From Clostridiales bacterium (GTDB taxonomy: Bacteria; Bacillota; Clostridia; Christensenellales; Borkfalkiaceae), in contig SVIJ01000017.1 of assembly GCA_015069565.1 (NCBI GenBank), forward strand, positions 1-32,417: a stretch of 32,417 nucleotides of DNA. The letters run 5' to 3'. The notes under the pieces are model-generated. The model had not been told where the DNA came from. It searched no databases and saw only the letters and a list, made by a program, of their open reading frames with translations. Every line of letters starts with the position of its first letter. The first letter of the stretch is position 1. A program made the position numbers and the translations under genes. Positions 11,793 through 15,570 of the stretch are shown here, piece by piece.

Positions 11793-12806
11793 ATGCAGGA
11801 AAAAATCAATGCGTTGCGCCAAGAGATTTTGGCGGCAATGGAAAAGACGGAAAGCGGTAGAGCGCTGTACGAATTGAAGGTGAAGTTCCAACAGGAGCTC
11901 AAAACGATCATGGCGGGTATGAAGGATTTGCCCAAGGAAGAAAAGCCCGTATTTGGGAAGATCGTCAACGAGTTCAAGCAGAGTATGGAAGCTGCCTTTG
12001 AAGCGCGCGCCGTCGTTGTAAAGGAAAAGGAAATGCAACAAAAATACGCCGCAGAGCGTATCGACATATCCATGCCCGGCAAAAAGTACACGGCGGGGGC
12101 TTTGCATCCCATCACCTTGGTGAAAAACGAGCTCATCGACATTTTCGCTGGTATGGGCTTTAAGATGTTTGAAGGCCCTGAAATTGAAACCGATTACTAC
12201 AATTTCACGGCACTCAACACTCCGAAGGATCACCCTGCAAGAGATATGCAGGATACCTTCTATTTGGCGGAAAATCTGCTCCTTCGCACGCAGACGTCCG
12301 CAGGGCAAATCCGCGTTATGGAAAAGGAAGCGCCCCCCATTAAAATCCTTTCCCCTGGTAGAGTGTTCCGTTCGGACGACGACGCGACCCATTCCCCGAT
12401 GTTCCATCAAATGGAAGGACTGGTGGTGGATAAGGGTATCACCCTTTGCGATTTGCAGGGTATGCTTGGCGAGTTCGCGCGGAAGATGTTCACGTCGTCC
12501 ACGAAGGTGCGCTTGCGTCCTTCCTATTTCCCCTTCACTGAACCGAGCGTAGAAGTGGATCTTTCCTGTTCGGAATGCGGCGGCAAGGGCTGTCGTCTTT
12601 GCAAGGGTACGGGCTGGATTGAAGTGCTCGGCGCAGGGATGGTCAATCGTCACGTCTTGGAAAACTGCGGCGTAGATCCCGACGAATACACGGGCTTTGC
12701 GTTCGGTATGGGGATTGAGCGTATTGCGATGCTCAAATACGGTATCAACAACATCAAGACGTTGTTTGAGAATGATATACGCTTTATCTCTCAATTTGAA
12801 GATTAA
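11793..12806 (+). CDS. pheS: Phenylalanyl-tRNA synthetase alpha subunit
   Basis: PheS carries the class II catalytic core of the (alpha-beta)2 enzyme that charges tRNA-Phe. The 337-residue protein has an N-terminal coiled-coil (about 1-90) that binds tRNA, HPITLV at 105-110, the motif 2 region [19 protein letters not shown] (191-209) and motif 3 in [14 protein letters not shown] (301-314). A zinc-knuckle-like insert with Cys259, 262, 267 and 270 precedes TGWIEVLG; it is common in Bacillota PheS. The start has AAAAGGAGAACAAT before ATG. The gene is controlled by the T-box leader. Unusually, 325 nt of repeat-rich DNA separate it from pheT, its obligate partner. Confidence 0.96.
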
Positions 12807-12851: not shown

Positions 12852-12888
12852 GTTCGCATCTACGCCGTTTTTGCACGGCACGAGATCA

Positions 12889-13100
12889 GTGAATTGATTT
12901 ATTCAAAATAAATCGTGAATTGCCCTTACGGGCGAGAAATGAAACTTGCAGTTTCGTGAATTGATTGCCAAAGGCAATCGTTATGGAAAAATAAAAATTT
13001 AGCCTTAACGCAAGGCAAAGCCTTGCAATTCACGTTTTCGTTTGAAAACAATTCACGACGGCATAGCCGTCAATTCACGCATACAAAGGATGCAATTCAC
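12889..13100 (+). repeat. Mirrored modular palindrome array between pheS and pheT
   Basis: Eight different short hairpins are separated by 7-nt linkers. Left linkers are GTGAATT at 12889, 12915 and 12956, and a degenerate GAGAAAT at 12934. Right linkers are AATTCAC at 13027, 13050, 13072 and 13094. Hairpins lie at 12896-12914, 12922-12933, 12941-12955, 12963-12979, 13010-13026, 13034-13049, 13057-13071 and 13079-13093. All are 12-19 nt, begin with G and end with C, and have loops of 3-4 nt except the last (7 nt). An AT-rich centre (12980-13009) is itself edged by gttatgg/ccttaac. Left linkers are complementary to right linkers, so the whole block can fold as one nested, branched structure. 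No T-run marks it as a terminator. I cannot match it to a named family. Confidence 0.85.
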
Positions 13101-13131: not shown

Positions 13132-15570
13132 ATGAAAGTACCTTTCAGTTGGTTAAAAGATTACGTAGAAATTGATATCACCGCGCAGGAGCTTGCGGAA
13201 AAGCTCTTTTCTTGCGGTTTTGAAGTGGAAGAGCTCATCTACCTTGGCGAAAAAATCAGCCGCGTGGTGGTGGGCGAAGTAAAGGCGCTCACCCCCCATC
13301 CTGACAGCGACCATATGCAGGTTTGCGTTGTGGACTGCGGCGACGAATACGGTAGAGAACTGCAAATTGTCACGGGTGCGCCCAACGTGTACGTGGGCAT
13401 GAAGACGCCCTGCGCGCTCGATGGCTCGACGGTAGTCGAAAGCGACCCCAGACAGCTTGAAAAGAACCCCGACGCGGTGAAGAAAATCAAGAAGGGCAAG
13501 CTTCGCGGCGTGGAATCGTGCGGTATGCTTTGTTCGGGGGAAGAGCTTGGCATCAACGACGATTATTACGACGGCGCAGAAGTGAACGGCTTGCTTGATT
13601 TGGCAAAGGATACCGTCGTGGGTACGGATATTAAGCAGGTAGTGGGCTTGGACGACTGGATTTTTGATATTTCCATCACTGCAAACCGCCCCGATTGCCA
13701 GAGCGTTTTAGGGATTGCGCGCGAAGTTGCGGCGGTTCTCAAAAAGCCCTTGAAGCACCCTGACGTTTCCTTCACGGCGAAAAAATCTTCCGCCGCGCCT
13801 GTTGCGGTGGAAGTGCTTGCACCCGATCTTTGCCCCCGATACGTAGGGCATTACGTCGAAGACGTAAAGGGCGGCAAGACGCCTGCTTGGATGCGTAAGC
13901 GTTTGGCGCTTTCGGGGATTCGTTCCATTTCGCCCATCGTCGACATCACGAACTTTGTGCTCCTTGAAATGGGGCAGCCCATGCACGCGTTTGATGCGGA
14001 CGAAATCGGCGGCAGAAAGATTGTCGTAAGAAGGGCAAACGACGGCGAAAAGATCGTCACGCTCGATGAGAAAGAGTTTACGCTCACCCACGACAACCTT
14101 GTCATTTGCGACGGCAACAAGCCTGTTGCGCTTGCAGGGATCATGGGCGGCTTGAATAGCGGCATCAAGGACGATACGAAGAACGTTTACTTCGAGTCCG
14201 CAAAGTTCGCGCGTGACAGCGTTCGTAAGACGTCGCGTGCGCTCGGGCAGTCTTCCGATTCGTCTTCGCGCTTTGAAAAGGGCGTGGATACGTACACGAA
14301 CGGCTTGGGTATGGCAAGAGCTCTGCACTTGATTGAAGAGTTTGCTTGCGGCACGGTCACCGACATTTGCGCGGACGTTTGCGCGGTTGATCTTTCCGAA
14401 CGAAAGATGGTTGCGTCCGTTTCGAAAATCAACGCTTTGCTCGGTATTCAAGTGCCCGATCAAGAGATCGTGGCAATCCTTTCGCGCTTGAACTTCCGTC
14501 CCGAAATCAACGGCGACACGCTGACGGTGACCGTTCCTGGCTACCGTGACGACGTTGATAACTATCCCGACCTTGCGGAAGAAGTGATCCGTATGTACGG
14601 CTACGATAAGCTCGTGCCCACCTTCTTGGAAGCGGCGGCGGTGACGGGCGGCGGCTTGACGGACGAGCAAAAGAAGGAAATGCACTTGAAGAACTTGCTC
14701 AAAACGCAAGGCTACTATGAAGCGCACAACTATTCCTTCTATTCCCCCAAGGATTTGGATTTGATGCGTATTCCCGAAGACGGCGTGGAGCGCAACGCGG
14801 TGCGGATTTTGAACCCGATCAGCGAAGAGCTTTCCATTATGCGTACCTTCCTTGCGCCTTCGATGCTGGCAAATGCCGTACGCAACATTCGTCGCGGCAA
14901 CGATGAAGGGAGAGAGTTTGAAATTGCCAACGTCTTCCTGCCCCGCGATACGGCGGCGAGCGAACAACCTGACGAAAGAAAGCATCTCGTCTTCTCGATC
15001 TGGGGCGCGAAGTGCGACTTCTTCGATATCAAGGGTACGGTAGAAGCGATTGCAGAAACCTTCCACTTGCCGTTCTCTTACGTTCGCGCGGAAAAAACCT
15101 ACCTTCATCCTGGCGTTTCCGCGAGCGTTATGCTCGGCAAAACGGTGGTGGGTGAAATCGGTGAACTCGACCCTGCTATTGCCCTTTCGCTTGGTTTGGA
15201 TAAAAAAGTGTACCTTGGCGAGCTCGATCTTTACGCGCTTGCGGAAAGTATGGACGACGCGGTACGCTATACCAACCTGCCCAAGTTCCCTGCGGTAAAG
15301 CGTGACTTTGCGCTCATCGTAGACGAAAAGCTTACCTGCGGTGAAATTGAAGAAGTGTTGATGCACTCGTGCAAGTACGTGACGAAGGCGGTGCTCTTCG
15401 ACGTGTACCGTGGCGGTCAGTTGCCCGAAGGGAAGAAGAGTATGGCGTTCACGCTCACCTTCACGCCCGACGCTACGGCGGAAAAGGGCTTTACGCCTGA
15501 AAGCTTGGACGGCTTCGTTAAAAAGATTTTGGGCAACTTGAAATTTAAGCTGGGGATCGAATTGCGCTAA
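13132..15570 (+). CDS. pheT: Phenylalanyl-tRNA synthetase beta subunit
   Basis: PheT is the large non-catalytic subunit that holds tRNA-Phe and edits mischarged Tyr-tRNA-Phe. At 812 residues it has the full Bacillota length. The N-terminal EMAP/OB-type tRNA-binding domain includes VVGEVKALTPHPDSDHMQVC (about 45-64). It is followed by the B3/B4 editing region with ITNFVLLEMGQPMHAFDAD, the B5 domain with PGYRDDVDNYPDLAEEVIR, the inactive synthetase-like core, and the C-terminal FDX-ACB anticodon-binding domain with PKFPAVKRDFALIVDE. The ATG has GGAGAAAAACA upstream. No promoter is visible in the 325-nt gap after pheS, so expression should come from readthrough under T-box control. The stop shares one base with the truB start. 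Confidence 0.96.
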   Translation: MKVPFSWLKDYVEIDITAQELAEKLFSCGFEVEELIYLGEKISRVVVGEVKALTPHPDSDHMQVCVVDCGDEYGRELQIVTGAPNVYVGMKTPCALDGSTVVESDPRQLEKNPDAVKKIKKGKLRGVESCGMLCSGEELGINDDYYDGAEVNGLLDLAKDTVVGTDIKQVVGLDDWIFDISITANRPDCQSVLGIAREVAAVLKKPLKHPDVSFTAKKSSAAPVAVEVLAPDLCPRYVGHYVEDVKGGKTPAWMRKRLALSGIRSISPIVDITNFVLLEMGQPMHAFDADEIGGRKIVVRRANDGEKIVTLDEKEFTLTHDNLVICDGNKPVALAGIMGGLNSGIKDDTKNVYFESAKFARDSVRKTSRALGQSSDSSSRFEKGVDTYTNGLGMARALHLIEEFACGTVTDICADVCAVDLSERKMVASVSKINALLGIQVPDQEIVAILSRLNFRPEINGDTLTVTVPGYRDDVDNYPDLAEEVIRMYGYDKLVPTFLEAAAVTGGGLTDEQKKEMHLKNLLKTQGYYEAHNYSFYSPKDLDLMRIPEDGVERNAVRILNPISEELSIMRTFLAPSMLANAVRNIRRGNDEGREFEIANVFLPRDTAASEQPDERKHLVFSIWGAKCDFFDIKGTVEAIAETFHLPFSYVRAEKTYLHPGVSASVMLGKTVVGEIGELDPAIALSLGLDKKVYLGELDLYALAESMDDAVRYTNLPKFPAVKRDFALIVDEKLTCGEIEEVLMHSCKYVTKAVLFDVYRGGQLPEGKKSMAFTLTFTPDATAEKGFTPESLDGFVKKILGNLKFKLGIELR

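Follow-up and report, generated by a model that had tools for sequence, protein, structure and literature searches.

The array between pheS and pheT

In the window, by which we mean the whole stretch of 32,417 nucleotides that was analysed, the genes pheS (11793-12806) and pheT (13132-15570) are separated by 325 bases, and this gap holds an array (12889-13100) of eight hairpins in two mirrored halves with 7-nt spacing throughout, as stated for hairpin number, spacing, symmetry and location in a preliminary description of the locus. The left half reads GTGAATT-h1-GTGAATT-h2-GAGAAAT-h3-GTGAATT-h4-GTTATGG and is followed by an AT-rich centre, the right half reads CCTTAAC-h5-AATTCAC-h6-AATTCAC-h7-AATTCAC-h8-AATTCAC, and the individual features are the following.

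12889-12895, plus strand: left linker 1, GTGAATT, outer end
12896-12914, plus strand: hairpin 1, 8-bp perfect stem
12915-12921, plus strand: left linker 2, GTGAATT
12922-12933, plus strand: hairpin 2, 4-bp stem; loop GTAA on the hairpin-AATTCAC-type (minus) strand
12934-12940, plus strand: left linker 3, degenerate, GAGAAAT
12941-12955, plus strand: hairpin 3, 6-bp stem; loop GCA on the hairpin-AATTCAC-type (minus) strand
12956-12962, plus strand: left linker 4, GTGAATT
12963-12979, plus strand: hairpin 4, 7-bp stem
12980-12986, plus strand: core motif GTTATGG (consensus GTTRYGG)
12987-13002, no strand: AT-rich centre
13003-13009, minus strand: inverted core motif CCTTAAC (consensus CCRYAAC)
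13010-13026, plus strand: hairpin 5, 7-bp stem
13027-13033, plus strand: right linker 1, AATTCAC
13034-13049, plus strand: hairpin 6, 6-bp stem
13050-13056, plus strand: right linker 2, AATTCAC
13057-13071, plus strand: hairpin 7, 6-bp stem
13072-13078, plus strand: right linker 3, AATTCAC
13079-13093, plus strand: hairpin 8, 4-bp stem, then A-G mismatch
13094-13100, plus strand: right linker 4, AATTCAC, outer end
12887-12967, plus strand: sub-threshold match to the Rfam Gut-1 RNA (RF01706), 35.0 bits against a gathering score of 50

In two details the anatomy departs from what had been described. Three of the four left linkers are exact GTGAATT (at 12889, 12915 and 12956), the third being GAGAAAT, and six stems instead of seven are perfect and longer than 4 bp (h1 and h3-h7), with h2 a perfect stem of 4 bp and h8 having four pairs before its mismatch. 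The inverted 7-mer pair GTTATGG/CCTTAAC at the core, which has one mismatch, is absent from the earlier account. The fold of the array has z = -7.77, with none of 200 shuffles as good. The word GTGAATT alone is not significant in the window (nine sites versus 5.1 expected, and nine or more in 8 of 100 shuffles); it is the clustering and grammar of the linkers which, unlike the bare word count, go beyond chance.

A dispersed family of dyad-symmetric elements

The genome holding the window (G000, 1.27 Mb, from an uncultured member of the Clostridia) gives 86 matches to a triple-linker pattern (38 forward and 48 reverse, neighbouring triples within one array being counted separately) and none to the reversed control, and in the stretches around these matches 41 arrays have three or more exact linkers, that of the window included. 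Between their linkers, 130 of 149 segments are perfect hairpins, i.e. have a stem of at least 4 and a loop of 3-6, versus 0.27% of shuffled segments. The array in the window is a single copy of a dispersed, dyad-symmetric element, canonically of about 212 bp, in which four hairpins with GTGAATT, the core GTTRYGG...CCRYAAC and four hairpins with AATTCAC follow one another. Each half is a quartet, composed of four short hairpins with a constant 7-nt linker and the core motif, and the full element consists of two quartets head to head around the AT-rich centre, its outer ends GTGAATT...AATTCAC forming terminal inverted repeats found in multiple dispersed copies.

A grammar parser applied to all fetched loci, minus 26 loci without hairpins described below, recognizes 83 distinct elements, each of four units or more. 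Exactly four hairpins are found in 92 of the 131 non-empty halves and more than four in seven, elements with four hairpins on either side measure 184-221 bp (15 of 19 fall in 210-217), and among 188 exact-linker chains a length of four is the commonest (114 chains; 61 have a length of three and 13 exceed four). Some apparent half elements, such as L035:18749, turn out to be complete, with a different linker in the opposite half, so that nothing is concluded from half elements. With respect to neighbouring genes, 17 of the 41 arrays are tandem, 12 convergent, 11 divergent and one undetermined, background gaps being 75 tandem, 39 convergent and 34 divergent; no clear preference for a gene arrangement is seen with these rough calls, made by a simple ORF caller which misread the tandem window as divergent. 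The expectation that further arrays exist in the genome and form a defined element family is strongly supported by the 41 arrays against an empty reversed control, by relatives with and without arrays and by element-free pheS-pheT gaps in relatives.

Several side features accompany the elements. In L037, L038, L048 and L050 (e.g. L048:4566 and L050:4527), one slot often holds a broken, mirror-like hairpin, of which the type GGAGCG-TCA-GCGAG replaces the palindrome GTCGC/GCGAC and recurs in several copies. At L048:15089-17349, a lipoprotein-like ORF of 504 aa lies between two near-identical elements that have matching flanks, and the whole 2.4-kb block is lacking in the relative G051. Other repeated intergenic sequences (GAGATCCTTCGGCTACGCTCAGGATGACA; GGCGGGGGCTTGCTCCCGCC; GGGGCGATTCACGAATCGCCC), present at L048:15030-17110 and in C13 of G000 (L359), adjoin arrays or occupy places where a relative has an array, and the AT-rich centre at L034:11375-11620 and in its G051 orthologue carries an extra hairpin, CCCCTTG...CAAGGGG. 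The genome also has a T-box leader (L047:177-423), a cobalamin riboswitch (L051:2475-2672) and an L10 leader (L048:9908-10047).

The distribution of the family is patchy. A two-linker pattern occurs in 21 of 57 congeneric genomes, with a reversed control of 0 in all 57, and 18 of the 21 have at least two matches; since the single matches in G005, G010 and G045 may be due to chance, 21 is an upper figure and 18 the firmer one. Counts reach 150 in G000, 135 in G047, 99 in G050, 84 in G022, 66 in G051 and 48 in G057, with 0 in G058. Across the order, six of 396 sampled genomes, G000 included and belonging to three families, contain the triple pattern. Hairpin sequences differ between species, and the linkers are the same by construction, having been searched as fixed words.

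Pattern scans of sequence collections gave at least 118 loci, at least 109 of them in genomes and nine viral, and the genome matches listed are mostly Clostridia/Clostridiales MAGs, many from ruminants. Among 34 loci inspected, eight of the 25 from genomes have hairpins; the other 17, from other groups or unnamed (including Prevotella, Rikenellaceae, cyanobacteria, Verrucomicrobiales, Planctomycetota, Rossellomorea and others), and all nine viral loci hold tandem repeats or unstructured spacers instead. These 26 were left out of the loop, stem-pairing, chain-length, strand-energy and grammar-parser counts. A phage or plasmid origin was rejected, neither collection giving a blastn match.

That structure is kept over sequence, as suggested from the window alone, is true for the stems, which covary strongly. 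Among 111 distinct 15-nt segments, 80 are fully paired versus a mean of 4.2 (maximum 11) after the 3' arms are re-dealt, with all four pair types used at five of six positions, and segments of 13, 14, 16 and 17 nt pair similarly. Mismatches over the five lengths comprise 29 G-T, 38 A-C and 94 others, i.e. no excess of G-T over A-C.

Sister linkers and the relationship to Gut-1 RNA

A linker-blind scan of the fetched loci recovers the same hairpin chains with GTGAAAT, GTGAAGT, GCGATAT, TCGATAT and ATGAATT linkers and, in L071, one chain with an 8-nt linker; arrays with ATATCGC, equal to GCGATAT, are found in four of ten genomes (six matches in G000, four in G051, three in G047 and 30 in G022). 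The whole window has no Rfam match at gathering level. Its match to Gut-1 (35.0 bits, E 2.7e-05 for 401 bases, below the 50-bit gathering threshold) is full-length on the model, with GTGAATT or GAGAAAT as linkers versus the consensus (G)UGAAAU. Searching 20 loci gives four matches at gathering level, and every one of them falls on an array with the GTGAAAT linker (two in L108, one in L057 and one in L226). With matches up to E = 1 admitted, L035, L036 and L048 yield scores of 37.9-47.4 bits for four more arrays, whose linkers are GTGATAT, GCGATAT or GCGAGAT-type, and no Gut-1 match for their ten GTGAATT arrays; one GTGAATT array, in L108, reaches 27.6 bits.

The two kinds of quartet meet within single elements. 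One core in L035 has a GTGAATT quartet on one side and a Gut-1-like quartet of 47.1 bits on the other, and in L057 a Gut-1 quartet lies opposite AATTCAC hairpins. As Gut-1-like and GTGAATT/AATTCAC halves share elements, Gut-1 and the window array are one system, and the window, not a member of Gut-1 by score, is nevertheless its relative. The initial impression that no named family has this linker is therefore not quite right.

Literature searches gave no description of such arrays other than Gut-1, which is listed, in the parts of Weinberg et al. (2010, PMC2864571) that concern it, as a noncoding-RNA candidate from human gut only. It resembles the window array in its consecutive hairpins, its 7-nt linker (GTGAAAT in Gut-1), its varying stems and its occurrence in gut bacteria, and two of its three consensus loops, C-UUC-G in the Rfam orientation, correspond to C-GAA-G on the complementary strand, the form also seen here. 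On the other hand, Gut-1 has three hairpins on one strand and is classed as an sRNA, whereas the elements described here have four hairpins per half, mirrored halves, several linker types, a dispersal over Clostridia MAGs, many of them ruminant among the matches listed, and a DNA-type loop bias.

Strand asymmetry of the hairpin loops

Read in the hairpin-AATTCAC orientation, 144 triloops are GNA versus 9 TNC (n = 299) and 53 tetraloops GNNA versus one TNNC (n = 120), and a C-G pair closes 371 of the 442 perfect hairpins found among 552 segments. Distinct triloop hairpins, summed over three genome groups, include 77 GNA versus 8 TNC; binomial p is about 1e-32 for the former and 3e-15 for the latter triloop comparison. 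The bias is weaker in G000 alone (31 GNA and 3 TNC, n = 91 triloops), and two of the eight loops in the window fit the C(GNA)G/C(GNNA)G preference. No GNRA preference is seen in the tetraloops (30 GNRA, 23 GNYA). In 23 elements with both halves, a set from which the 26 non-hairpin loci were not removed, the bias is 21:2 in left and 26:1 in right halves. Since the halves are inverted, it lies on opposite strands of one element and a single transcript cannot satisfy it, and the preference in both halves for C(GNA)G/C(GNNA)G, a very stable type of DNA minihairpin, argues for DNA hairpins over one RNA. Among the roles first proposed for the array, the loop asymmetry thus favours the cruciform or DNA-level site.

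The motif C(GNA)G was reportedly described by Yoshizawa in 1997 as a DNA minihairpin. For the promoter hairpins of the phage N4 virion RNA polymerase, a C:G closing pair and a G...A loop are required for extrusion at physiological supercoiling, according to the sections of PMC4496689 that deal with them, and GNA minihairpin stability is discussed in parts of PMC6479982. The N4 hairpins, as presented in those sections, are alike in being short DNA hairpins with a three-nucleotide G...A loop and a C:G closing pair that are extruded by supercoiling, and differ as phage promoters with some conserved stem bases and with no quartet, linker array or dispersal. Nearest-neighbour strand energies of 259 hairpins (ViennaRNA) are nearly uninformative: the hairpin-AATTCAC strand is more stable in 44, less stable in 11 and equal in 204 with DNA parameters, versus 34, 24 and 201 with RNA parameters. 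As this difference is small, the GNA argument rests on the published thermodynamics.

That the array is transcribed and its hairpins act in RNA, as the listing of Gut-1 as an sRNA implies, would agree with the GTGAAAT arrays that pass the Gut-1 gathering score, the sub-threshold score of the window itself, its strong predicted RNA fold and the covariation of the stems. Such a structured RNA is nonetheless rather improbable in view of a loop bias that goes with the linker, on opposite strands of the same element, the lack of a GNRA or G-U signature and the lack of a clear gene-arrangement preference among the 41 arrays by the rough ORF calls.

Presence and absence at matching sites

PheT was found in 55 of the 57 congeneric genomes and 30 PheT loci were fetched, from which a script resolved 25 pheS-pheT gaps, our own included, and left five loci unresolved. 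No array is present in the gap (11-156 bases) of any of the 24 relatives, and in the nearest one, G051 (PheT 89% identical), the flanks of the gap are recognizable. The empty sites that the preliminary description proposed to look for are seen in every one of these 24 relatives, and the role in setting the PheS:PheT ratio that it considered is unsupported, as the copy is absent from all these relatives.

In the fetched loci of G051, G057 and G058, both flanks were found near each other for 11 of the 41 arrays, and nine of these sites were aligned (L037:11872 and L041:7664 were left out). G057 has no array at the places matching L035:4106, L035:9531 and L037:13511, the array at L035:17475 is missing in G051 and G057, that of the window site in G051, G057 and G058, and the L048 pair in G051; in the other direction, G000 lacks two arrays that G051 carries in L261. 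Arrays shared between genomes are those at L034/L267 and L040/L269, the L042/L266 sites being ambiguous. The site alignments are noisy, as the sites often hold other sequence, and absence from relatives could be loss instead of gain.

The shared sites show how copies diverge. The copies at L034/L267 agree fully in five of their eight stems, whereas none of the five loops carried by these stems is conserved. A different hairpin occupies the place of h2, one genome has a mismatch in h7 and one in h8, and the two genomes have identical h8 loops. At L040/L269, h2, h3, h4, h6 and h7 (5/8) differ as whole units and most linkers are kept. An alignment of 16 close copies shows almost no change in most stems and linkers and variation in the loops; some copies lack the outer left hairpins or have different ones.

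Hairpins thus seem to be exchanged between copies, as units at L040/L269 and also within G000, where 8 of 51 stems recur in more than one slot, which would suit a simple non-autonomous inverted-repeat element with functionless hairpins, its palindromes being kept perfect by template-switch correction and gene conversion among copies. We regard this as unlikely: under correction alone, stems would be expected to drift at about the rate of loops, whereas loops diverge faster (as judged from the L034/L267 site and the 16 aligned copies), half size is held at four hairpins in 92 of 131 non-empty halves, and the strand-specific loop bias needs a further cause.

Comparison with REP elements and pairing of the linkers

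REP, BIME and REPIN sequences are, like the array, intergenic, of high copy number, palindromic and arranged in inverted pairs. According to PMC3733652 and PMC6006769, it is the stems and loops that define a REP family, and a GTAG/GTGG (or CGTC) end is present, whereas here the linker is conserved, the hairpins differ and no REP-associated tyrosine transposase (RAYT) matches. G000 encodes a RAYT-like protein (L342:1323-1922; NF047646, 77.2 bits, cut-off 80), and a full-length Y1_Tnp gene is present in each of the array-rich genomes G047 and G022; but relatives of the G000 protein occur in only two of 56 other congeners (G046 and G053), both without arrays, any Y1_Tnp is present in 9 of 21 array-positive versus 12 of 36 array-negative genomes (Fisher p 0.57), and the array-rich G050 (93% complete) and G051 have none. 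A RAYT or other Y1 transposase as mobilizer is therefore disfavoured by the phyletic pattern, and the REP likeness noted at the outset survives as an analogy only. With GTGAATT/AATTCAC or a sister linker, not GTAG/GTGG, as the conserved word at the hairpin feet and with hairpins that differ within one array, REP/BIME elements mobilized by a RAYT are a very unlikely explanation.

Even less credible is a single large branched fold with stacked four-way junctions through paired linkers as the functional unit, which was proposed initially and does appear in the minimum-energy RNA fold, where the two halves pair partly through their linkers, but gains no support from covariation and is rejected as nested linker pairing for lack of compensation, given that in 20 full elements (the 26 non-hairpin loci not removed) linker substitutions are one-sided or uncompensated with the exception of one pair, GTGAATG/CATTCAC, and the middle positions of the inner GTTRYGG/CCRYAAC do not compensate. 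The linkers, kept as words without compensation while the stems covary, look like recognized words and not like helices.

A possible function at the DNA level

We assign a probability of roughly 0.5 to an action of the element as DNA, in which a putative reader protein would recognize the evenly spaced linkers displayed by extruded or single-stranded minihairpins and would also disperse the element. Upon unwinding or negative supercoiling of the duplex, the hairpin-AATTCAC strand of each half would snap into C(GNA)G-type minihairpins, which would expose the single-stranded, evenly spaced linkers to this putative protein; it would read the linker and need the hairpins but not their letters. If the same protein disperses the element, the latter would be a non-autonomous mobile element. 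Counting against action as DNA, Rfam lists the related Gut-1 as an RNA. No linked enzyme tracks the arrays among those searched (Y1_Tnp and the G000 RAYT), and 20 full elements show no target-site duplication of 2-9 nt beyond shuffles, exact direct repeats being present at one element with 4 nt and at one with 7 nt (flank-shuffled means 0.44 and 0.17). Of the hallmarks of a MITE, terminal inverted repeats and dispersed copies are present, and target-site duplication is not.

The double-hairpin elements of organelle genomes are mobile and likewise keep their structure while their stems vary, and integron attC sites are structure-recognized single-strand sites with variable sequence. The former differ from the element described here in having two hairpins and in their organellar location, and we know of no constant linker in them; the latter have one imperfect hairpin per site and an integrase.

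More broadly, and with somewhat less than even odds in our estimation, Gut-1 and the GTGAATT, GTGAAGT, GCGATAT and TCGATAT arrays may constitute one class of mobile DNA and not RNAs, namely paired quartets of supercoil-extruded C(GNA)G minihairpins of which a protein reads only the spaced single-stranded linker, with swappable hairpins and the linker type as specificity. The array between pheS and pheT belongs to a Gut-1-like system that looks more like a DNA-hairpin element, and a reinterpretation at the DNA level is proposed. If this is true, Gut-1, a Rfam family for which the descriptions drawn on here state no function, would turn out to be one half of a mobile DNA-hairpin element, and hairpin shape plus a 7-nt single-stranded word would be the recognition code of a natural class of elements. 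The occurrence of C(GNA)G on one named strand would then separate DNA-hairpin from RNA-hairpin elements in genome data, a rule which could be applied to other unexplained 'structured RNAs'.
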